From Chroococcidiopsidaceae cyanobacterium CP_BM_ER_R8_30 (GTDB taxonomy: Bacteria > Cyanobacteriota > Cyanobacteriia > Cyanobacteriales > Chroococcidiopsidaceae): 45,344 nucleotides of DNA. Positions 7,133-27,719 of the stretch are shown here, piece by piece. A program made the position numbers and the translations under genes. Below the pieces are notes generated by a model. It searched no databases, was not told where the DNA came from, and worked only from the letters and a program-made list of their open reading frames with translations. Each line of letters starts with the position of its first letter. Positions within the stretch are counted from its first letter, which is position 1. The stretch is from NCBI GenBank assembly GCA_019244235.1, contig JAFASY010000290.1, positions 1 through 45,344 of the forward strand. The letters run 5' to 3'.

Positions 7133-8215
7133 ATGAACAATAATACAGAAAGACGTACACCGCTCAGCAAAGACGCTATCTTGCTGATTAGAGGTTTGAT
7201 TGTTGGTGAAGTATTGTCAATTGCTATCATTGGTGGACTATGGTTGTGGCTGAGACCGCGATTGCAAGTTGGTAACACAGTGTCTTCCTCTAGCCAAATT
7301 TCAGGTACTGTCTCCACTCCCACTCATTCGACCTTTAAAACAGTTTCTAGTGTGCCAATTGGCACATTCAATTATGGTGGAAGTACAGCTTGGGCACCGA
7401 TCCGACTGGTGGTAGATTCTCAGCTACAGAATGCTCGCCCGGAATTGCAGTTGCGTTATGTAAACCCAACTTATGGCAGCGCTGGTTCTGGTGCAGGAAT
7501 CCGCATGTTACTCTCTGGACAATTAGACTTTACACAATCTTCTCGTCCCCTCACAGTTGAAGAACGTGCTGCAGCTCGGCGGCAAGGCTTCACACTTGAG
7601 CAACGTCAGGTAGGTGTTGATGGTATTGCAGTAGTCGTTAATCCATCTCTTAAAGTCCCAGGCTTAACTATTACCCAGTTACAGCAGATTTATTTGGGAC
7701 AAATTACAAATTGGAACCAGGTAGGTGGACCAAACCTGCCCATTGTCCCTCTCTCTCAACACCCGGAGAACGCGGACGTAGAATTACTCCCTGAACAGCC
7801 TGGGTTACAGAGGCAAGTACCCAGTGCCAATGTAAGATATGTCTACTCCACAACCGAGGCGCTGCGCCGCCTTAGCCAAACTCCTGGCGGTATATATTAC
7901 GCTTCTGCGGCGGCTGTCGTGCCTCAATGCTATGTGAAGCCTTTACCCTTGGGGCTAACTTCCACTCGGCTGATAGCACCTTACCATGGATCTTTAGTGT
8001 CACCGGGGCAGTGTCCCTCAAAGCGCAATCAGCTGAACACAGAAGTTCTTAAGAACGGTAGTTATCCGCTCACTACCAGATTGTCTGTGGTTATCAAGCA
8101 AAACAAGGGTAGGGAACAGCAAGCAGGGGAAGCTTATGCTCGCCTCTTACTGACAAACCAGGGCCAAAAGGAAATTGAACAGGCTGGGTTTGCCCCAATT
8201 CACTCTCATCTCTAA
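7133..8215 (+). CDS. Membrane-anchored PstS-like substrate-binding protein
   Basis: This 360-residue protein is a type II periplasmic-binding domain of the PstS phosphate-binding family. An uncleaved N-terminal helix (about residues 15-40, LSIAIIGGLWLWL) tethers it to the membrane. A Ser/Thr-rich linker follows, then the binding domain with FNYGGSTAWAPIR, NPTYGSAGSGAGIRMLLSG, DFTQSSRPLT, GVDGIAVVVNPSL and LQQIYLGQITNWNQVGG, all PstS-type motifs around the anion site. No Pst permease or ATPase genes are near. Together with the kinase gene immediately downstream, this suggests phosphate sensing or scaffolding rather than classical transport. The role is inferred. Confidence 0.85.
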   Translation: MNNNTERRTPLSKDAILLIRGLIVGEVLSIAIIGGLWLWLRPRLQVGNTVSSSSQISGTVSTPTHSTFKTVSSVPIGTFNYGGSTAWAPIRLVVDSQLQNARPELQLRYVNPTYGSAGSGAGIRMLLSGQLDFTQSSRPLTVEERAAARRQGFTLEQRQVGVDGIAVVVNPSLKVPGLTITQLQQIYLGQITNWNQVGGPNLPIVPLSQHPENADVELLPEQPGLQRQVPSANVRYVYSTTEALRRLSQTPGGIYYASAAAVVPQCYVKPLPLGLTSTRLIAPYHGSLVSPGQCPSKRNQLNTEVLKNGSYPLTTRLSVVIKQNKGREQQAGEAYARLLLTNQGQKEIEQAGFAPIHSHL

Positions 8216-8221
8216 ATGATG

Positions 8222-8266
8222 TTGGATTTTTGGGGCTTCGGTTTAGCGAAAGGCTTCAAAATCCAA
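8222..8266 (+). terminator. Hairpin after the PstS-like gene
   Basis: TTGGATTTT (8222-8230) pairs perfectly with AAAATCCAA (8258-8266), and an inner TTCG/CGAA pairing extends the structure. It lies 6 bases after the stop codon. Probable terminator, although no long U-run follows. Confidence 0.45.
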
Positions 8267-8482
8267 TCCGTATTTCTTTGGTGGCTAGATGCAGTCTTTA
8301 TGAAGTTTAGATAAAGTCTAAGAAGAACTACGTAGGTGTTCTCAGCCTTTCTTCAGGCTGAACCATACATTGGTTCTAAAGGTCGTTTTTGTTCCAAGTA
8401 AAATTACTCAACGTTCCACTGGGAGGCAGCTCCTTAGCTTACGTTGAGCAAGCTCAGTGTACTAGGCGGACGCATCATCGAT

Positions 8483-9760
8483 ATGCTAGGTAAATTACTT
8501 GAGGGACGCTATCAAATTGTTCAAGTTCTCAGTAAGGGAGGGTTTAGTCAAACCTACCTAGCTCAAGATACTTACCGACCTAGACGCCCCAACTGCGTTG
8601 TTAAACATCTTAAGGTTGCCAGTAGTAACCACGATATCTCTTTGCAAGCTCTTAGGTGGCTATTTGTGAGAGAAGTGGAAGCCCTGAAAAAGTTAGGCAG
8701 CCATGACCAAGTCCCTCAGCTTTTAGATCATTTTGAAGATAAACAAGATTTCTACTTGGTGCAAGAGTTCATTAAAGGGCATCCGTTGAGTTTAGAACTA
8801 CAGCCAGGCCACTGCTGGACTGAAAGTCAAGTTTTGCAATTGCTGCAGGAGGTTTTGAGCATTCTGGAGTTTGTGCATGGCCACGCACTTATTCATCGAG
8901 ACCTCAAACCAGGCAATATTATTAGACGAGATCGGGATAGCAGATTAGTACTCATTGACTTTGGATCGGTTCAGCAAGCTTCAACTCAAATAGTTAGGTT
9001 TCAAGGCAAGACTCGTACTAGCATTACCGTCAGCATACCTGGTACCATTGGTCTTGGGACACCAGGCTATATGCCGCTTGAACAGGAGCAAGGTAGACCA
9101 CGCTTCAATAGCGACATCTATGCCTTGGGCATGATTGGTATTCGAGCGCTGACAGGACTAAAGCCTACACAATTGTCAAGAGAACAAAATACGGGTAAGC
9201 TAATCTGGCAATACCAGGCGCAGGTTAGTACGACCCTAGCTGATATTCTTAGTAGGATGGTGCAGCCTGACTACAGATGCCGATTCGAATCAGCGACAGA
9301 AGTCCTACAAGCGCTCCTGCCATTGACGACGTCAACTCGCTTTCAGGTGGAGGCTCCTCCTTCGAGAACGTTGAATAAGCCTGAGCAACCAGTACAGGAA
9401 GAGTTAGCTCCAACACCACTAGCACCTCCATCAGCCACTATCGCTTCAGGATCTCCAGTCCCTTATAGAAAAGGGAATGTTAAGCAGCGCCAAGCAAGCG
9501 CTGCAACGGCAGTTGCTGCTGCATGGGAACAGGCTTCTCTGCCTAAGCAGAATAATAAGCAGGCTTTGGATAACGAGGAACTGCAACCACTCTTAGATGA
9601 GCAGAGCAGTCATATTACTGTATCTACCCTTCCTAGCAAATCTGCTCTGCTGATTGGCTTGGTGATAGGTATTATCTCTGGTCTAGTTCTTATGATGGTG
9701 AGCTACTATTCTCTACAGCTACCAGCCCCTACTCCTAAGACCCAATCCCATTCTTCATGA
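8483..9760 (+). CDS. Serine/threonine protein kinase with C-terminal membrane anchor
   Basis: This 425-residue eukaryotic-type kinase begins with the common cyanobacterial start MLGKLLEGRYQIVQVLSKGG, so ATG 8483 is preferred over TTG 8444. The glycine-rich loop is followed by VVKHLK with the ATP-binding Lys, the catalytic loop HRDLKPGNI (His138, Asp140) and the DFG motif (Asp159), so it should be active. After about residue 280 there is a low-complexity Pro/Ala/Gln linker. A single transmembrane helix lies near residues 388-412 (LIGLVIGIISGLVLMMV), with only a short tail beyond. The kinase domain is therefore cytoplasmic and there is no large external sensor. The gene follows the PstS-like gene on the same strand. 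Confidence 0.92.
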   Translation: MLGKLLEGRYQIVQVLSKGGFSQTYLAQDTYRPRRPNCVVKHLKVASSNHDISLQALRWLFVREVEALKKLGSHDQVPQLLDHFEDKQDFYLVQEFIKGHPLSLELQPGHCWTESQVLQLLQEVLSILEFVHGHALIHRDLKPGNIIRRDRDSRLVLIDFGSVQQASTQIVRFQGKTRTSITVSIPGTIGLGTPGYMPLEQEQGRPRFNSDIYALGMIGIRALTGLKPTQLSREQNTGKLIWQYQAQVSTTLADILSRMVQPDYRCRFESATEVLQALLPLTTSTRFQVEAPPSRTLNKPEQPVQEELAPTPLAPPSATIASGSPVPYRKGNVKQRQASAATAVAAAWEQASLPKQNNKQALDNEELQPLLDEQSSHITVSTLPSKSALLIGLVIGIISGLVLMMVSYYSLQLPAPTPKTQSHSS

Positions 9761-16385: not shown

Positions 16386-16838
16386 TCAATCTGCTACAGA
16401 TGTAACTTCGCTTTTTGAACCAGGAAAAAATTTCTGGCTTAGCCAATAAGTCAAAATGTGAGACAGCAACCCCAAAGGACCAGCAAATAAACACAAGGCA
16501 AGTGAATGAATTGTCCAAATACCTGTTCTCTGACCCTCCCAATAAATCCAGCGACCCACAAACAGGTCCATCACTAAGAAGTGAACCCACCCAGTTGCTG
16601 CCGCCTGCTCATCTGCAAAGAACCGGGCAATATCTGCTAACTGGGGATTAGATAGGGCCTGGGCATTCTCGGGTGTAATACTGCTAACGAAAAGATATAG
16701 ATACAATCCTGCCAGTGCGACATAGGGTAGGTACGATTCCATAACTCGCCGCGTGACCCCCCAGTTGGGTAACAAAATCATCAGCACCCAGAAAGGCAAA
16801 ACAAATAGATTAGCTCCACGAAAAAGTGCACCTGTCAT
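16386..16838 (-). CDS. ABA4-like family membrane protein (DUF4281)
   Basis: This 150-residue protein has four hydrophobic helices and the family landmarks ANLFVLPFWVLMILLPNWGV, TRRVMESYLPYVALAGLYLY, GWVHFLVMDLFVGRWIYWEG and FAGPLGLLSHILTYWL. The plant homologue ABA4 is needed for neoxanthin synthesis; the cyanobacterial function is not established. The polar residues His, Asp and Arg in the WVHFLVMDLFVGRW segment are conserved in the family and may form an active or binding site within the membrane. The gene is monocistronic or shares a region with the cobW remnant upstream. Confidence 0.9.
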   Translation of the reverse strand: MTGALFRGANLFVLPFWVLMILLPNWGVTRRVMESYLPYVALAGLYLYLFVSSITPENAQALSNPQLADIARFFADEQAAATGWVHFLVMDLFVGRWIYWEGQRTGIWTIHSLALCLFAGPLGLLSHILTYWLSQKFFPGSKSEVTSVAD

Positions 16839-19271: not shown

Positions 19272-20438
19272 TCAAGGCTTAAGTACAACCTTAATGCAGT
19301 TATCTTTTTTATGCTTGAAAATCTCGTAGCCTTGCGGTGCTTGCTCCATAGGCATTATGTGGGTAACAACAAAAGACGGATCAATCTCACCATTTTGAAT
19401 GCGTTCAAGCAAAGGACGCAGGTACCTGTGGACATGAGTCTGTCCCGATTTAAAGGTTAAGGCTTTATTCATAGCAGCACCCATTGGTATCTTGTCAAGA
19501 AAGCCTCCATAAACGCCGGGAATCGACACACTCCCACCTTTACGACAGGCAACAATCACTTGCCTCAAGGCAGTTGGTCGGTCTGTCTCCAGACGTACTG
19601 CTTGTTTAACCTGGTCGTAGAATGAATCTGGACCCGTGCCATGTGCTTCCATTCCTACGGCATCCATACAAGCGTCTGGACCACGACCACCTGTCATTTC
19701 TTTGAGTGCTTCACCAGGATCGACTTCCTCGTAGTTAATAACTTCTGCCTTGCCTGCTTTCGCCATCTGGAGGCGTTCGGGGACTCGATCGATTGCAATG
19801 ACACGCTCAGCACCAAGCATGTAGGCACTGCGGATGGCGAATTGTCCTACAGGTCCACAGCCCCAAATAGCGACAATATCACCAGGCTGAATATTGCAGT
19901 TTTCTGCCGCCATGTATCCTGTCGGGAAAATATCTGTTAGAAACAGCACTTGTTCGTCTGTCAGTCCATCAGGAATTTTGAACAAACCAACATCAGCAAA
20001 GGGAACGCGAGCATATTCAGCTTGTCCTCCAGCATAACCACCCATCATGTGAGAGTAGCCGAAAAGACCAGCTGGAGAATGGCCCATGAGCTTCTCTGCC
20101 ATCCAAGCATTAGGGTTGGAGTTGTCGCACAGCGACCATAAATCTTTTTTGCAGAAGAAGCAGTTCCCACAGGAGATGGTGAAGGGGACGACAACGCGAT
20201 CGCCTACCTGCACATTCTTCACCGCGCTGCCAAGCTCAACAACCTCTCCCATGAATTCATGACCAAGGATATCGCCTGATTGCATTGTCGGGATGAAGCC
20301 ATCGTAAAGATGGAGGTCAGAACCGCAAATTGCGGTGGATGTGATCTTGACTATGGCATCACGCGGATTAATAATTTTGGGATCAGGTACTGTATCGACG
20401 CGGACATCTTTAGCGCCATGCCAGCAGACAGCTTTCAT
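19272..20438 (-). CDS. Zinc-dependent medium-chain alcohol/formaldehyde dehydrogenase
   Basis: This 388-residue MDR-family enzyme oxidises an alcohol or aldehyde adduct with NAD+. Catalytic zinc ligands are Cys38 ([10 protein letters not shown]) and His60-Glu61 (GHEFMGEV). The structural zinc lobe has Cys90, Cys93, Cys96 and Cys104. The Rossmann motif [20 protein letters not shown] lies near residue 190. The overall pattern, with a long lobe after the Rossmann domain ([14 protein letters not shown]), matches the glutathione-independent formaldehyde dehydrogenase-like group. It is the last gene of a five-gene operon and starts 18 bases after the SRPBCC gene. Confidence 0.93.
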
Positions 20439-20456
20439 TAAGTATTCTCCGTATAG

Positions 20457-21134
20457 TTACTTACGACCAGAAGGTTGGCCTTCTGTTGTGGCTATCTCAC
20501 CTGCTTCCATCAATTGCTTGAAGCGGCGGAGATCATCTCCGGCTTGCTGTTCTGGTTCTTCGCCAAAAAGTTTGGCAATTGCTGCCCCGATTGCACCTCC
20601 AGGCGGATTGTATTCAAGAACAACCTTGACCTCGGTACCACGTCCACCCGGTGCAGGAGTAAAGCGCACAAAACCAGAATTATCAACATCTGCCCCCGCA
20701 ACCGAAGCCCAGGCAATTAACTGATTTTCTTGATCTGTGACAATGTCTGCATCCCATTCCACACTAGTACCCAAAGGCGCGTTGGCTATCCAGTGCGAAC
20801 GCTTGGCATCGTACACCTGCACAGATTTAAGATGCTTCATGAAAGTCGGCAGTTTCTCAAAATCGTGCCAATAGCGATACAGCTCGTCTGCTGGTTTATT
20901 AATCGTTACAGTCTTCTCAACTCTGATGCCTTGGTTCATATCTACTGCTTCCTGTATGCCACTTTGTCCAGTCGCACCATGATAGACAAGGCCCCCTCCA
21001 GCTAGTGCCATTAAAGCGCCTCGTAAAGAGCCTTGCCTTAAACCCAGCAACACTAGGGCACCGCCACCGATCAGCGACGCCCAACGTTCTGTTCCACTCT
21101 GACTTGTCTGCTTATCTTCTGGTGTTGATGTCAT
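20457..21134 (-). CDS. SRPBCC-domain protein with N-terminal membrane region
   Basis: The 225-residue protein combines an N-terminal Gly/Ala/Leu-rich segment of one or two helices (LIGGGALVLLGLRQGSLRG, ALMALAGGGLVYHGATG), resembling the YgaP/DUF2892 type, with a START-like SRPBCC domain from residue 70. The domain begins RVEKTVTINKPADELYRYWH and continues with FEKLPTFMKHLKSVQVYD and VEWDADIVTDQENQLIAWAS. It probably binds a hydrophobic ligand near the membrane. The same domain pairing is common in bacterial stress-associated operons. It lies 12 bases after the DJ-1 fusion gene and 18 bases before the dehydrogenase. Confidence 0.87.
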   Translation of the reverse strand: MTSTPEDKQTSQSGTERWASLIGGGALVLLGLRQGSLRGALMALAGGGLVYHGATGQSGIQEAVDMNQGIRVEKTVTINKPADELYRYWHDFEKLPTFMKHLKSVQVYDAKRSHWIANAPLGTSVEWDADIVTDQENQLIAWASVAGADVDNSGFVRFTPAPGGRGTEVKVVLEYNPPGGAIGAAIAKLFGEEPEQQAGDDLRRFKQLMEAGEIATTEGQPSGRK

Positions 21135-21146
21135 ACCGTTAACAAC

Positions 21147-22241
21147 TCACATTTTGACGGCAGCACTTGTCGTTGGCTGCGCTGGTTGTATATTGGTAGC
21201 GCCCATCCGTGCCCGGTAGATTTCTGCAAGATGCCGCTCGTACAGTGCCAGGTCATCTTCAATCGCAGTAAAAATGGCAGTTGATACGGGATCGGTAAAT
21301 TGCGTCCGCAGATTGTAGGCATCTACAACACCAGTTTGGATATCGCCAAGGATAGTGCGTAGGAGAAATTCTTGATCGCTGCCCTGTAATGCGGTTTTTA
21401 ACTTTGCATACTTATCAGCCGCTTGTGCTGGTAAAGAAGGCTTTTCACCCAAAGCTGCTAAACGCGCTTCTAGCACCTGGATATGGTTCTGCTTGTTAGC
21501 AATCATCTCTTGCAGTAGCGATCGCAATTCGGCATCTGAAGTCTTCTGAGCATACTGCTCAAAAGCCTCCTGTCCGTAGCGCTCTCCGGCTAGAGCCGTA
21601 TTCAGACCTTTAACAATCTCACCTTTTGTTGAACCACCCCAAGAGTCAGCTAGCTTCCACCAATCAGCAGTGACATCCTTTTCATCTGGCAGCGCAGCAT
21701 CTTTACCACCATACCCCAGACGACTGAGAATCGCAGTGGTAAAAATCGCCAAGTCTCCAGGTTGACGAGATGTCAACAAGTTGCCGTCAACTACCAAGGG
21801 TTCGTCAGTATAGTCAGCACCCGCATTAATCATGTCCTTCCGAATAGCGACGAAACCTGTAGCTCGCTTACCCCTGAGTAAATCACCTTCGATCAGAACT
21901 TGCGGTCCGTGGCAAACGGCAGCAACTAGCTTTCCTTGTACCATCATCTCCTGGACAAAGCGAACCGTATTGGGATTGGTGCGCATCCGATCTGGAGCCA
22001 TACCGCCAGGAATCACAACAGCATCAAATTCAGAAGCAACAGCTTCTGTAGTTGTCCCATCCGCTGTCTGAGAAAGCTTACCCTGTTTGCCCTTATATGT
22101 CTCATTGGTGCGCGAACCGAGTACAACAACTTCGACTCCCGCCATCTGTAGCCCTTTATAGGGGACTTGAAATTCTGCATCTTCCACCCCATTTTCGATC
22201 AGGATGGCAACTCGCTTATTGATAGCTCGGTTGTATGTCAT
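21147..22241 (-). CDS. DJ-1/PfpI domain fused to a ferritin-like DUF2383-type domain
   Basis: The first 190 residues are a PfpI-type DJ-1 domain: RVAILIENGVEDAEFQVPYK, FDAVVIPGGMAPDRMR and the nucleophile elbow AAVCHGPQ with Cys110. Glu20 in NGVED lies at the usual position of the acid partner. Residues from about 205 to 350 form a four-helix bundle: LNTALAGERYGQEAFEQYAQ, LLQEMIANKQNHIQVLEARL, LLRTILGDIQTGVVDAYNLR and IEDDLALYERHLAEIYRARM. This resembles DUF2383/ferritin-like proteins, with Glu and His at some metal-ligand positions and others replaced. The fusion suggests protein or carbonyl repair coupled to oxidant or metal handling. Third gene of the operon. Confidence 0.85.
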   Translation of the reverse strand: MTYNRAINKRVAILIENGVEDAEFQVPYKGLQMAGVEVVVLGSRTNETYKGKQGKLSQTADGTTTEAVASEFDAVVIPGGMAPDRMRTNPNTVRFVQEMMVQGKLVAAVCHGPQVLIEGDLLRGKRATGFVAIRKDMINAGADYTDEPLVVDGNLLTSRQPGDLAIFTTAILSRLGYGGKDAALPDEKDVTADWWKLADSWGGSTKGEIVKGLNTALAGERYGQEAFEQYAQKTSDAELRSLLQEMIANKQNHIQVLEARLAALGEKPSLPAQAADKYAKLKTALQGSDQEFLLRTILGDIQTGVVDAYNLRTQFTDPVSTAIFTAIEDDLALYERHLAEIYRARMGATNIQPAQPTTSAAVKM

Positions 22242-22272
22242 CGCTTTTACCGTGGTTAACTTACAGTACTGA

Positions 22273-22659
22273 TTAGCTAATTGGTGTCGGGAAAAGATCT
22301 AAGTAATCCTCTGAGAGATTTGCCCTCATATCAGCAAACTCACCGGGCGTGACAGCTTCCTGTATCACTGAGAATACTGCCCGAGCATGAATAGCAGCAG
22401 CAGGTGGCTCCACGCCTTCTTTTTCGCTCACGCGCTGATAAAAGTCTATAAGTGGGAAGTATTGACCATTCTCTCCCTCTCTCCCTTGGAGATATTGACC
22501 AATCTCTGGTGGCAACTGTGCTGCCAGTTGACTTGCTTCATTCCCAACTATGCGTTCTTTCAGAGTTTCTAAGGTGGCTCGAATAGCTTTCTCTGCCTCT
22601 TCTTTCGAGCTAAGTTGAGCAGCATCCTGAACCTGTTGAATGAATTCGTTTCGCTTCAT
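22273..22659 (-). CDS. DUF2267 family protein
   Basis: This 128-residue helical protein matches the DUF2267 pattern: MKRNEFIQQVQDAAQLSSKE, then AEKAIRATLETLKERIVGNE, AAQLPPEIGQYLQG, the segment FIDFYQRVSE-like FPLIDFYQRVSEKEGV, and HARAVFSVIQEAVTPGEFAD. Biochemical function is unknown. The family commonly sits in stress-related operons. It is second in the operon, 56 bases after the small ferritin-like gene and 31 bases before the DJ-1 fusion. Confidence 0.9.
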   Translation of the reverse strand: MKRNEFIQQVQDAAQLSSKEEAEKAIRATLETLKERIVGNEASQLAAQLPPEIGQYLQGREGENGQYFPLIDFYQRVSEKEGVEPPAAAIHARAVFSVIQEAVTPGEFADMRANLSEDYLDLFPTPIS

Positions 22660-22715
22660 CTTTCACCCTGAAGTCACTCACTAAACCAACATTTCACTCA
22701 CTAAAACTGACCTTC

Positions 22716-22946
22716 CTATCGAGCTGCAAAGCTACCTAGTCGCTGTGCTAGTAATTCTTTAGCTCGATCGGCAGATTTTTGGCATTGTTCTTTTGCCTCT
22801 TGGAAAAATTGAGCGAGATCCTTATCTCCAGCCTGCTCAGCATCCTTAACATATTTGTCGTAGGTTACGGTACCTTCTAGAGCATGGTAAAGTACGCTGA
22901 CCAGGTTGTATTGTTCGTTCTTAGTGCCTGTAATATGTTCGCTCAT
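22716..22946 (-). CDS. Small ferritin-like helical protein, 76 aa
   Basis: This short protein is nearly all helix: YNLVSVLYHALEGTVTYDKY, VKDAEQAGDKDLAQFFQEAK and EQCQKSADRAKELLAQRLGS. It looks like half of a four-helix bundle, similar to small rubrerythrin-like proteins of stress operons, so it may dimerise. Metal binding is uncertain because an ExxH pair is not evident beyond YHALEG. A GGGAG Shine-Dalgarno stands in front of the ATG. It is the first gene of the operon, divergent from the DUF6335 gene across 330 bases. Confidence 0.8.
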   Translation of the reverse strand: MSEHITGTKNEQYNLVSVLYHALEGTVTYDKYVKDAEQAGDKDLAQFFQEAKEQCQKSADRAKELLAQRLGSFAAR

Positions 22947-23276
22947 TGTTTATTCTCCCTTTTATTTATTCCAATCGTCCTTTTCAGATCAATTTGCCAC
23001 TAATCGACTTGCATCAATGGCTTATTAAAGCGTCACCAATTTTTGAATAACGCTCTTGGCAAGGTCAAATGTTTTGACTACAGCCTATGTCCGACAAGTT
23101 GGGAGATTCGTCGCTCCAAAGATAGAAACATTTATCATGTTCAGCACTCTTAGATTCTCTCTAAAGAGCTATAAAAAGGTGTTGAGCTTTTATTGCTGTT
23201 ATAAAAAGCTAATATTGACATCTGTTTGGAATTCTACTGTTAAATTAGGTATACAAGAATGTAGGGAGTAAAGATT
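22947..23276. promoter_or_regulatory. Divergent promoter region between the stress operon and the DUF6335 gene
   Basis: The 330-base interval is AT-rich. It holds an inverted repeat AGCTTTT (23185-23191)/AAAAGCT (23204-23210) directly upstream of a plus-strand promoter at 23215-23243. I see no promoter of comparable quality on the minus strand. No gene is supported. Confidence 0.5.
23215..23243 (+). promoter_or_regulatory. Candidate sigma-70 promoter of the DUF6335 gene
   Basis: A perfect TTGACA -35 (23215-23220) is followed after 17 bases by TGTTAA (23238-23243), a weak -10. The ATG at 23277 is 33 bases beyond, with GGGAG as Shine-Dalgarno. Confidence 0.5.
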
Positions 23277-23687
23277 ATGACTAGCAAAGCTAACAACTCA
23301 GAGAACGAACAAATTGCTAACAGCGAGGATCTCCCAGAAGCAATTACTGAATCCTATGGAACTGGTGTTAAAGAGCAACCAGGGTTCAATATCGGTGGAA
23401 GAACTATGCAGGACGAAATGAGAGAGTACACCGACGTGAGTCCAGAACTATCTGGTGGAGATATTGATGCTGCGTGGGATCAGGCAGATGTAAGTGGCGA
23501 AGAAGCAGTTGGTGGAACTGTTGCAACTCCTGACCAAGACATTGTTGATGAACTAGGAGATGCTGTCGGGCTAGGAATGGCAGAGCAAGAATATGTCCAT
23601 ACAAACGAGGTATTAGAAACTCGCGATGCTCGGCGCTGGGAGCTAGATCCTACTTCTTCTGAAGATTATCAAGAGCGACGCCAATAA
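23277..23687 (+). CDS. DUF6335 family protein
   Basis: The 136-residue acidic protein has the layout of cyanobacterial DUF6335 proteins: SEDLPEAITESYGTGV near residue 20, SPELSGGDIDAAWDQAD in the middle, and TPDQDIVDELGDAVGLG with EVLETRDARRWELDP near the end. Function is unknown. Low hydrophobicity and many Asp, Glu, Gly and Ser residues suggest a partly disordered protein, which would suit desiccation or osmotic stress, but that is speculation. It is co-directional with the carotenoid-protein gene 145 bases downstream. Confidence 0.9.
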   Translation: MTSKANNSENEQIANSEDLPEAITESYGTGVKEQPGFNIGGRTMQDEMREYTDVSPELSGGDIDAAWDQADVSGEEAVGGTVATPDQDIVDELGDAVGLGMAEQEYVHTNEVLETRDARRWELDPTSSEDYQERRQ

Positions 23688-23832
23688 CCAATAAGCTGAT
23701 CTTATGCAGTCGGATCTAGCTGACCTCTGCCTTGAGGCTAGTTTCCTTCCTCTGTCTGTAGCAGGTTTAACTAGCATTTGCTCTCTTGCTACTGTGCGGG
23801 GGTTAGTCAGAACTAATAAATCGGAGTTCAAC

Positions 23833-24324
23833 ATGACATACACTCAAACTAATGACGAAACTATAAATCAAGCTTTGAAAGCAATCCGAGGCTTGGATGT
23901 AGATGAACAGTTGGCACTATTTTGGTTCGTCTACACTGAAATGGGTAGCTCGATCACCCCTGCCGCGCCAGGAGCAAGTACTGTCTCGCCAGATGTAGCT
24001 GAAGGGCTGTTTAATCAAGTTAAACAGCTATCCCATGAAGAACAATTACAGGTTCAGCGTGACTTAATTAACAAGGCAGATACTGTATTCACTCGTGAGT
24101 ATGGCTCTATGAGTGACACAACTAAATTGCTATTTTGGTATCGACTGGCGCAAGGGATGGAGAACTCTACTATTATCCCTATGCCGCCTGGGTACAAGCT
24201 TTCTTCTCAGGCAGAGGAGCTGCTTAATCAGGTTAAGGGATTAGAATTCGAACAGCAAATTACCCTTTTCCGCGACTACGTGTCACCCATGGGTGCTGAG
24301 GCAAAGGGAGGCGCTGAAGTATAA
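23833..24324 (+). CDS. Helical carotenoid protein (OCP N-terminal-domain family)
   Basis: This 163-residue all-helical protein is the stand-alone carotenoid-binding domain of the orange carotenoid protein family. It carries the two internal repeats ALFWFVYTEMGSSITPAAP and LLFWYRLAQGMENS. Tyr34 and Trp102 occupy the positions of the ring-stacking residues Tyr44 and Trp110 of OCP. There is no C-terminal NTF2 domain and no CTDH gene nearby. HCPs quench singlet oxygen, and some quench phycobilisomes. The ATG at 23833, with GGAG upstream, is preferred; the longer open frame to 23704 adds unrelated residues. Confidence 0.93.
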   Translation: MTYTQTNDETINQALKAIRGLDVDEQLALFWFVYTEMGSSITPAAPGASTVSPDVAEGLFNQVKQLSHEEQLQVQRDLINKADTVFTREYGSMSDTTKLLFWYRLAQGMENSTIIPMPPGYKLSSQAEELLNQVKGLEFEQQITLFRDYVSPMGAEAKGGAEV

Positions 24325-24576: not shown

Positions 24577-25005
24577 TTACGTTCCTACCTCCAGCTGAAG
24601 CTGGCAGAGAGAGCACAAGCCAAAGAATTCTAGGGTATGATAGTAGATCTTGAAGGCTTGAGAGGAGCGCAAGTTCGCCTCAAGTTCGTGAACCGGGCAC
24701 TCCTTCAGAGGGAAGGACTGACCGCAATTTAGGCAAGTTAAGTGGTGTGTATCTTGCTCCACCAAACTGTAAAGAGATTCGCCATTCGTGGATGTTCGAA
24801 GTTGGACGATTCCCCTTAGGGTCAAAGCTTTTAAAGTGCGGTAAACAGTTGCCAGTCCAATATTCTGATGCTGGTTACGTAGCATAGTAAAGAGCTCTTG
24901 GGCGGAGACAGCACAGTCTAGATGTTGCATCAACTTGAGAACTTGTGCCTGACTTCGAGTGAGTGAGTCTTTGGTGGATTCAGGAGGATGCTGACGAGGT
25001 TCCAT
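24577..25005 (-). CDS. zur: Fur-family metalloregulator, probably Zur (FurB)
   Basis: This 142-residue Fur-family repressor has a winged helix with ILKLMQ-like QVLKLMQHLDCAVSAQELFT and NIGLATVYRTLKALTLRG, the Fur DNA-recognition signature. The dimerisation domain carries THHLTCLNCGQSFPLKECPV and a second CxxC (LCSLCQ), the structural zinc site. Cyanobacteria have Fur, Zur and PerR. The Zur assignment rests on the early short N-terminus, the CxxC spacing and the neighbouring zinc-type transporter, so it is probable rather than proven. ATG 25005 is preferred over TTG 25029. A strong Fur/Zur box lies 138 bases upstream and suggests autoregulation. Confidence 0.82.
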   Translation of the reverse strand: MEPRQHPPESTKDSLTRSQAQVLKLMQHLDCAVSAQELFTMLRNQHQNIGLATVYRTLKALTLRGIVQLRTSTNGESLYSLVEQDTHHLTCLNCGQSFPLKECPVHELEANLRSSQAFKIYYHTLEFFGLCSLCQLQLEVGT

Positions 25006-25142
25006 ACAATGTTTAAGCGGTACAGGCAATTCTTAAGGATGAGGCGAGGAAGCAAAAGATGCGGTTTATCGCTATCGATTAACTGACTCTGGTATGACAC
25101 TAATTCAGGAGTAAGACAGTCCCAAGCCCTACCTGTTGTCAT

Positions 25143-26907: not shown

Positions 26908-26999
26908 TTTTTATTTTAGTTAAATTCCTCATAGGATCAAGGTAACAGGCGTCTCAAGCCTGGTTGCAATGCTCAATATCTTGTCAGAGGAATAGACCC

Positions 27000-27719
27000 G
27001 TGCAACCCCAAAAAGTTCTGATTGTTTTGACTAGTACTAGTACGCTTGGCAGCAGTGGTAAGGATACAGGCTTCTACCTTCCAGAAGTGACTCATCCCTA
27101 TGAGGTATTTGCTCAAGCTGGCTTCGGAATTGACTTCGTTAGTCCCAAGGGTGGGAAAGCTCCTATGACTGGAATCGATTTAGAAGACCCGTTGAACAAA
27201 GCCTTTCTTGATGATCCTGAGCGAGTTGCACAAGTGGAACAAACGCTCAGTCCTGACCAAATTGACCCTAACCAGTACGACGCTATCTTTTATGCCGGGG
27301 GACACGGGACCATGTGGGACTTCCCCGATCATGAGCAGCTTGCCCAGATCGCTGCTGCGATTTATGATCGCGGTGGAGTTATCGGGGCAGTCTGCCACGG
27401 ACCCGCTGGATTAGTCAATATCAAGCTTGCCAATGGGGAATACCTTGTTGCCGGAAAGACAGTTTCCGCTTTCACAAATCAGGAAGAAGCGGCAGTTGAG
27501 TTGGCTGAAGTTGTACCCTTCCTACTTGAGTCGAAGCTGAGGGAGCGTGGGGCTGAATTTTCCAAAGCACCAAACTTCCAGGCTCATGTTGTTGTGAGTG
27601 AGCGTTTAGTAACTGGGCAGAATCCTGCCTCTGCAACAGGAGTAGGAGAACAGATGACGGTGCTGATGAATCAACGGGAGCAGCGCTCAGCCTCTTCTAT
27701 ACCCTCACTTACCGCTTGA
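27000..27719 (+). CDS. DJ-1/PfpI superfamily protein, Hsp31/glyoxalase III-like
   Basis: This 239-residue protein has the Hsp31-like arrangement: VLIVLTSTSTLGSSGKDTGF, YLPEVTHPYEVFAQAGFGID, FVSPKGGKAPMTGIDLEDP, YAGGHGTMWDFPDHEQLA and the nucleophile elbow IGAVCHGPAGLVN with Cys132 and His133. Such enzymes deglycate proteins or convert methylglyoxal to lactate. GTG 27000 with a GAGG Shine-Dalgarno is preferred over TTG 26964, whose extra residues do not fit the family. It is the first gene of a cluster with an ABM protein and a YqhD-like aldehyde reductase, opposite a LysR gene. Confidence 0.9.
   Translation: MQPQKVLIVLTSTSTLGSSGKDTGFYLPEVTHPYEVFAQAGFGIDFVSPKGGKAPMTGIDLEDPLNKAFLDDPERVAQVEQTLSPDQIDPNQYDAIFYAGGHGTMWDFPDHEQLAQIAAAIYDRGGVIGAVCHGPAGLVNIKLANGEYLVAGKTVSAFTNQEEAAVELAEVVPFLLESKLRERGAEFSKAPNFQAHVVVSERLVTGQNPASATGVGEQMTVLMNQREQRSASSIPSLTA

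Follow-up and report, generated by a model that had tools for sequence, protein, structure and literature searches.

A DJ-1/PfpI and ferritin-like fusion protein in a conserved cyanobacterial gene island, and its contracted form in a Chroococcidiopsidaceae genome

Introduction

What could hold together, in one cyanobacterial genome, five closely spaced genes of which the middle one joins a DJ-1/PfpI domain to a ferritin-like four-helix bundle? The question is raised by a stretch of DNA of 45,344 nucleotides (hereafter the window) from Chroococcidiopsidaceae cyanobacterium CP_BM_ER_R8_30 (NCBI GenBank assembly GCA_019244235.1, contig JAFASY010000290.1, positions 1 to 45,344), whose minus strand carries all five genes, from 22946 down to 19272. 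A first-pass annotation, made from the sequence alone, had seen in them a five-gene stress operon in which a fusion could combine carbonyl chemistry with metal binding. The explanation of the whole that we find best, and towards which the balance tips modestly, is that these five make up the core of an oxidative and carbonyl-stress island that is conserved among cyanobacteria and has been shortened in this lineage.

Results

On re-reading of the sequence, the coordinates, strand, order and gaps given in the first-pass annotation proved exact. A short helical protein of 76 amino acids (aa) comes first (22716..22946), followed by a DUF2267 protein of 128 aa (22273..22659; 125 bits), the fusion of 364 aa (21147..22241; identified by Pfam and by its match to the Protein Data Bank entry 3fse), an SRPBCC protein of 225 aa (20457..21134) and a zinc-dependent alcohol dehydrogenase of 388 aa (19272..20438), the successive gaps being 56, 31, 12 and 18 bases. 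The labels DUF2267, DJ-1 and ferritin-like (DUF2383) all pass their Pfam cut-offs. In the loci compared, the median gap is 79 bases between DUF2267 and the fusion (65 pairs), 105 between the fusion and SRPBCC (73 pairs) and 108 between SRPBCC and the dehydrogenase (61 pairs, some with an intervening gene), the window being counted in and the loci coming from overlapping collections that were not deduplicated; the very short gaps are therefore a feature of the window lineage.

In relatives, the genes belong to a larger unit, with one strand bearing one or more helical carotenoid proteins and DUF6335, and the other bearing DUF2267, the fusion, SRPBCC, a dehydrogenase, a DUF6658-like protein (20 bits, below the cut-off of 27), a further dehydrogenase, a cupin and sometimes a Mn-catalase. 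Its composition was counted in 77 loci (L007-L083, the single-domain loci L084 and L085 being left out), using for each gene only those loci with sufficient flank, and in orthologous regions of 16-17 kb from 12 of the 13 other genomes of the window's family that carry the fusion (G005 was left out), two of which overlap named loci (L167 with L007, L168 with L009). DUF2267 lies upstream of the fusion in 51/74 loci and 7/12 family regions, and SRPBCC downstream of it in 62/74 and 12/12; DUF6335 is found in 62/74 and 12/12, the carotenoid protein in 39/64 (within 5 kb upstream) and 7/12, the dehydrogenase next in order in 59/71 and 12/12, the DUF6658-like protein in 60/71 loci, the cupin in 53/65 and 12/12, and the Mn-catalase in 23/62 and 9/12. 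Since in 63 of the 77 loci (two others end there) the fusion is followed, as the next gene of 100 aa or more, by a same-strand SRPBCC, the gene order, which is preserved across many genera, represents more than chance. The search for this order in other genomes, which had been proposed at the outset, thus returned a genuine fusion surrounded by a conserved set of genes.

The window itself retains the other-strand partners of the island, a DUF6335 protein (23277..23687, plus strand; 182 bits) and a helical carotenoid protein-like gene that consists of the N-terminal domain of OCP only (23785..24324, plus strand; Carot_N 204.6 bits), the start codon of the latter being of our own choosing. Its 45 kb gave no match to the cupin, to the Mn-catalase, to the DUF6658-like protein or to another dehydrogenase of this type; elsewhere the genome encodes Mn-catalase on contigs C37 and C152 and a relative of the cupin on C14. 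The 76-aa gene, for its part, occurs in none of the 12 family regions. Because the cupin and Mn-catalase end is missing here and the first gene is missing there, the window represents a contracted island that has gained a first gene. The proposal of a five-gene unit holds in part, for the conserved core; the unit of the relatives is larger, including the carotenoid protein, DUF6335, cupin and Mn-catalase, and the first gene is a local addition.

A hotspot that has accumulated unrelated stress genes, each with its own promoter and with no functional system behind them, would produce a neighbourhood of similar appearance; median gaps of about 80-110 bases leave room for separate promoters, and gene content varies, some islands having no fusion. 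Against this, many genera preserve both the order and the strand of the genes, and there is a common intergenic element, found once per genome where it is matched, so that we regard such a hotspot as very unlikely. The first-pass annotation had held the combination to be undescribed as one system, which, for the larger island, agrees with the open-licence PMC literature, where no description of it as one unit was found.

That element is a conserved block, TATCCCTTTGGAG, in the intergenic stretch between DUF6335 and the rest of the island. Allowing up to 3 mismatches, it is present in 47 of 76 sequences, as against a mean of 3.95 in shuffles, some of the 3-mismatch matches, that of the window included, lying clearly away from the block; a two-block version is present in 45 of the 76, the window not among them, as against 0.05. 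As the sequences are related by descent, the shuffles overstate the significance. Where relatives read TATCCCTTTGGAGYGAAGA, the window has a degenerate copy, found by eye, at 23108-23126 on the minus strand. With one mismatch allowed, a single match to the 19-base pattern is found in 12 of the 18 other genomes of the family, always at the island locus (assigned by annotation in 6 and by coordinates in 6), and none in the reversed control. The six other family genomes, among them the fusion-bearing G296 and G299-G301, have none; the only match in the window genome, with one mismatch, is on contig C113, with no island genes there, and a looser pattern gives a single match in that genome, equal to the single match of the control. 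The element was also considered as a general marker of a regulon, and this was rejected, since in the 12 other family genomes that match it is found once each, at the island locus; it could be a dedicated operator or leader sequence. No Rfam match indicative of a structured RNA was found between 18000 and 25200 up to an E-value of 1. A TATCCC-type repeat accompanies the element in many relatives.

That the fusion is a novel architecture was considered and could not be sustained. The structure 3fse (Anabaena variabilis Ava_4496, DJ-1/ThiJ/PfpI-like plus ferritin-like), released in 2009, matches residues 3-364 with an E-value of 3.7e-167 and is also the top fold match; its domain order is identical over the full length, both domains being alike, and no difference of kind is seen. 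Moreover, a passage in a 2019 review (PMC6584798), which credits Shrivastava et al. 2015, reports that alr0893 of Anabaena PCC 7120, a PfpI protease with a ferritin domain, accumulates under UV-B; the combination of domains is alike, on a comparison by description only.

The fusion is widely distributed and mostly intact. A scan of one genome per species gave 79 loci with relatives, of which 75 carry it at full length (>340 residues), two of these from one metagenome-assembled genome (MAG) of Pyrinomonadaceae and the remainder cyanobacterial; the fusion is thus far from being split in all relatives, the circumstance that the first-pass annotation had regarded as fatal to its reading. In the other four, the gene is interrupted by the contig end (L074), lacks its first 128 residues, the catalytic Cys among them, inside a contig (L081, Tychonema bourrellyi, 8129-8836; its relative L032 is full length), or is a single-domain relative (L084 and L085). 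Separate genes for the two halves were not observed in any genome, ferritin-like halves on their own not having been searched for. At an E-value of 1e-30, 35 of 292 genomes of the phylum give a match, nearly full length in 29 (counted by hand from the match table, the window genome included), and the single-domain DJ-1 matches of this search have 37-44% identity. In the family, 14 of 19 genomes, again including that of the window, have the fusion, and a plasmid search (E 1e-40) returned a single copy, in Acaryochloris. Four further copies seemed to contain internal stops: those of L097 and L107 are located at the C-terminal tail, which L107 has lost, and those of L098 and L100 vanish on re-alignment.

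Some copies lie outside the island. The window genome has a second one (L086:9809-10948, contig C51), with Ser in place of the catalytic Cys; the tree puts it close to the window protein, with a long branch and weak support (0.53). It sits behind a 408-aa short-chain dehydrogenase; in the Microcoleus locus L018 and in L180 the fusion likewise follows a short-chain dehydrogenase, a different one. In the Pyrinomonadaceae MAG, a lexA-like gene is the nearest larger upstream gene of both copies (L076:1862-3893 and L077:6666-8924), and an AhpC/TSA-family gene lies further upstream in L076.

Residue conservation was read from an alignment of 101 relatives that takes only matches of more than 300 residues (hence neither L081 nor the single-domain relatives), excludes identical sequences together with L001 and L002 (the window's own genome, L002 being the gene of L086), and still counts the paralogue L086, the plasmid copy (L116) and L074, which is partial and was omitted from the tree. 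The DJ-1 domain (residues 8-175; 21717..22220, minus strand), which aligns to YhbO (1oi4), matches the Pfam family DJ-1_PfpI with 166 bits, above the cut-off, and passes that of the PfpI/YhbO subfamily TIGR01382 (161.2 against 139.05 bits). Glu23 is kept in 100 of the 101 relatives, Asp84 in 99, Cys110 in 99 and His111 in 100; they correspond to Glu22, Asp86, Cys112 and His113 of Pseudomonas aeruginosa PfpI, according to a mapping based on the alignment to YhbO and on the ranges over which 8r3n aligns. This PfpI is among the sequence matches of the DJ-1 half. An excerpt of its description (PMC11987610) presents it as a methylglyoxalase that is inactive when Cys112 or His113 is mutated, its active site comprising the nucleophilic Cys, the His that follows it, a conserved Glu and an Asp from the neighbouring subunit. 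Both it and Escherichia coli YhbO, glutathione-independent methylglyoxalases, share with the fusion the DJ-1 branch, the nucleophile elbow and the active-site residues; they differ in that they are single-domain proteins, whereas the window protein adds a ferritin-like domain and a tail, and scores below the PfpI equivalog cut-off. The carbonyl (methylglyoxal) chemistry attributed to this half in the first-pass annotation therefore fits, the necessary residues being present. Because the catalytic residues are kept, the subfamily cut-off is passed and P. aeruginosa PfpI is a methylglyoxalase, the best-supported guess is that the DJ-1 half would be a glyoxalase.

Two of the aligned copies have no Cys110, namely the window genome's own paralogue, with Ser, and the Acaryochloris plasmid protein (L116:10001-11080), where Gly-Tyr occupies the Cys-His positions in a second loss of the nucleophile. 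That both fusions are otherwise intact is what one would expect if the fusion were mainly a redox-sensitive chaperone or sensor, its function being the oxidation of Cys110 and its helical half binding clients, and passages of the literature do argue such roles for relatives of DJ-1. However, the domain falls in the PfpI/YhbO branch, for which the excerpt cited above (PMC11987610) has catalysis by PfpI as demonstrated, and 99 of the 101 relatives retain the Cys; we hold the chaperone or sensor to be rather unlikely.

The second half (residues 206-347; 21201..21626, minus strand) matches DUF2383 with 42.8 bits (cut-off 30.8) and is modelled as a four-helix bundle with a predicted local distance difference test (pLDDT) value of 87.6. 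It superimposes on 3fse (Z 20.1), on PA2169 (4etr; Z 18.0, root mean square deviation [rmsd] 1.1, 122 residues) and on bacterioferritin 4cvs (Z 18.0, rmsd 1.6, 137 residues), and Dps is also matched. Its first hairpin (helices A-B) aligns ungapped to the encapsulin cargo EncB (E 0.035) and to designed di-iron or manganese peptides, weakly in all cases (E 0.03-0.04). In this weak alignment, E220 and H253 coincide with the Glu and His of the E/ExxH pattern of EncB, which we take to bind metal there. The Glu of the ExxH, in contrast, at the bridging position 250, is Lys in 90 and Arg in 11 of the 101 relatives, so that a canonical iron centre appears unlikely in this family. Invariant or nearly so are E220 (101), K/R250 (101), H253 (97), Q302 (101) and E335 (101). 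The test for a centre of the di-iron ferritin or bacterioferritin type, a Glu in helix A and an ExxH in helix B, failed; of the second pair, a Glu in helix C and an ExxH in helix D, the window protein lacks the ExxH, and Q302, residue 332 and E335 are matched to the second hairpin by equal spacing only, where we infer that Q302 and E335 take the corresponding places. A Lys at the position of a metal-ligand Glu recalls the metal-free class Ie ribonucleotide reductase. The metal binding envisaged in the first-pass annotation is not borne out, as far as the canonical centre is concerned; a non-canonical site formed by the invariant acids is possible.

Such a site is what would be needed if, on one chain, the ferritin-like half captured free iron or some other metal and the DJ-1 half repaired proteins damaged by glycation or oxidation. 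Dps and bacterioferritin do stand among the top fold matches, invariant acids are present in all four helices (E220, E258, D307, E335), H253 is nearly invariant, and, in an excerpt of the AEROPATH paper (PMC3539698), the authors of the structure of PA2169 noted a triad elsewhere in the bundle resembling a potential metal site. The same excerpt, on the other side, records that in PA2169, a DUF2383 protein solved using 3fse, the ferritin site is absent and attempts to bind metal were unsuccessful. None of the 101 relatives of the fusion keeps the bridging Glu, and we judge the metal-binding repair protein to be quite improbable. PA2169 shares the bundle fold and differs in being a stand-alone protein; presumably its triad, Glu102-Asp106-His139, has no matching positions in the fusion, to judge from a comparison by hand with its sequence pattern.

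After the bundle come a low-confidence linker (pLDDT 36-39) and a conserved C-terminal tail (21150..21194, minus strand). The commonest tail in relatives is KPTTGAAVSM or a close variant; 74 of 102 sequences have PTTG among their final 16 residues, and the window has PTTS. By a loose rule, and in examined loci that were not deduplicated, the pattern gave 128 matches, confined to the ends of fusion-like frames. A tail of this kind, conserved in most relatives and set behind a low-confidence linker, points to a motif for docking. The EncB-like hairpin and the tail prompted a consideration of the fusion as encapsulin cargo, which was rejected as a general explanation: the encapsulin families NF041162 and PF04454, the only ones searched for, have no match in the window genome (97% complete), and among the 292 genomes of the phylum NF041162 matches 16 (7 above the cut-off), of which only 6 have a full-length fusion, and PF04454 matches 7, none of them with one.

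The remaining genes were less exactly named in the first-pass annotation. The 76-aa protein, described as ferritin-like, is so more weakly than had been claimed, as it reaches 19.0 bits in the Pfam family Ferritin (cut-off 24.5). Relatives of 24-30% identity, weak ones, exist in 14 other family genomes, elsewhere by their coordinates, and closer ones (52-61%) in 5 genomes of family f5, whose 3-kb loci contain no island genes; ExxH is absent from the window protein and the 5 f5 relatives, and is found near the C-terminus of two distant relatives (L138 and L140). The SRPBCC protein, whose family is characterized by a pocket for hydrophobic ligands, is confirmed as such (Polyketide_cyc, 62.2 bits against 23.4). 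It had been thought membrane-tethered; in its Gly/Ala-rich hydrophobic N-terminus the highest 19-residue Kyte-Doolittle mean is 1.24 (starting at residues 26 and 27), compared with the usual threshold of 1.6 for a membrane span, which makes the tether weaker than supposed. The dehydrogenase has both zinc alcohol dehydrogenase domains (ADH_N 88.3 bits, cut-off 23.5; ADH_zinc_N 60.7 bits, cut-off 31.8) and shares 83-93% identity with its nearest counterpart in every one of the 12 family regions, but the formaldehyde type that had been assigned to it is not supported: for the glutathione-independent formaldehyde dehydrogenase TIGR02819 it scores 221.5 bits, so far under the cut-off of 636.95 that formaldehyde is not supported as its substrate.

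SRPBCC and dehydrogenase also form a pair in their own right. In 6 of 6 plasmid records read, chosen from 94 matched (two cyanobacteria, an alpha- and a gammaproteobacterium, an actinomycete and a Deinococcus), they are adjacent with no listed gene between them, and the pair is an old two-gene unit. A Nostoc plasmid (L187:8016-12565) lines up genes for SRPBCC, two dehydrogenases, a PfpI-family protein and an aldo/keto reductase, with no fusion annotated, and this is a related carbonyl-type cluster.

Discussion

The island is real and conserved, and its parts are largely known; its function has to be read from them. The fusion would act as a DJ-1 enzyme of the PfpI/YhbO type, converting methylglyoxal-type dicarbonyls into hydroxy acids without glutathione, by way of Cys110, His111 and Glu23, while the ferritin-shaped half, devoid of the canonical metal centre, could serve as a module for oligomerisation or docking, with the conserved C-terminal tail as its point of contact. 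SRPBCC and the zinc alcohol dehydrogenase would probably process another reactive alcohol or aldehyde. Because the locus adds a carotenoid protein in many relatives and a Mn-catalase in some, the products of these genes, if co-transcribed under a common stress, could jointly protect against singlet oxygen, peroxide and carbonyls. One Anabaena helical carotenoid protein (HCP) is reported to quench singlet oxygen, according to an excerpt of PMC7660261; the window gene is known as HCP-like only. The accumulation of alr0893 under UV-B, as reported in the review, also speaks for a role in stress.

Several points weigh against an island with this joint function. Its genes may be mere neighbours with no common pathway, and promoter-like and terminator-like sites, which could have spoken for a single transcript, occur in the region at chance level and are thus uninformative. 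The Mn-catalase is absent from 39 of the 62 loci, and the fusion itself is dispensable, as two genomes (G294, 99% complete, and G307, 84% complete) have the island without it; on a contig fragment of a third, G297, DUF6335 adjoins SRPBCC. As regards the enzyme, the PfpI equivalog model NF040823 is failed by a wide distance (134.8 against 330 bits), the Ser and Gly-Tyr copies imply a role besides thiol catalysis for some fusions, and the Tychonema bourrellyi copy has lost the first 128 residues.

A more specific form of the stress-island reading, which we advance as a doubtful conjecture, is that the metal-free bundle, with its fixed Lys or Arg in place of the bridging ligand, could be an adaptor that, together with the tail, would hold the glyoxalase on a partner, within an undescribed stress island under its own once-per-genome DNA element. 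Independently of this conjecture, a family with a ferritin-like name is re-read, the fold being kept but not the canonical iron centre, and attention moves from iron storage to docking or chaperoning; the fusion, in turn, finds its place in a conserved island of greater extent, to which a carotenoid protein and, in some species, a Mn-catalase belong. If the island is confirmed, many filamentous and rock- or soil-dwelling cyanobacteria would possess a single, testable locus against singlet oxygen, peroxide and reactive carbonyls.

Other genes of the window lie near the island. A gene for a FUR-family regulator (24577-25029), just past the carotenoid protein gene, may act as a regulator of the locus. 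A second gene of the DJ-1/PfpI type (26964-27719), single-domain and weakly HchA-like, is located on the opposite strand at a distance of about 4.7 kb from the fusion. Finally, an ABA4-like gene (16386-16838; 169 bits), between those of P5C reductase and heme oxygenase, makes this, together with the carotenoid protein gene, a pigment-rich neighbourhood.

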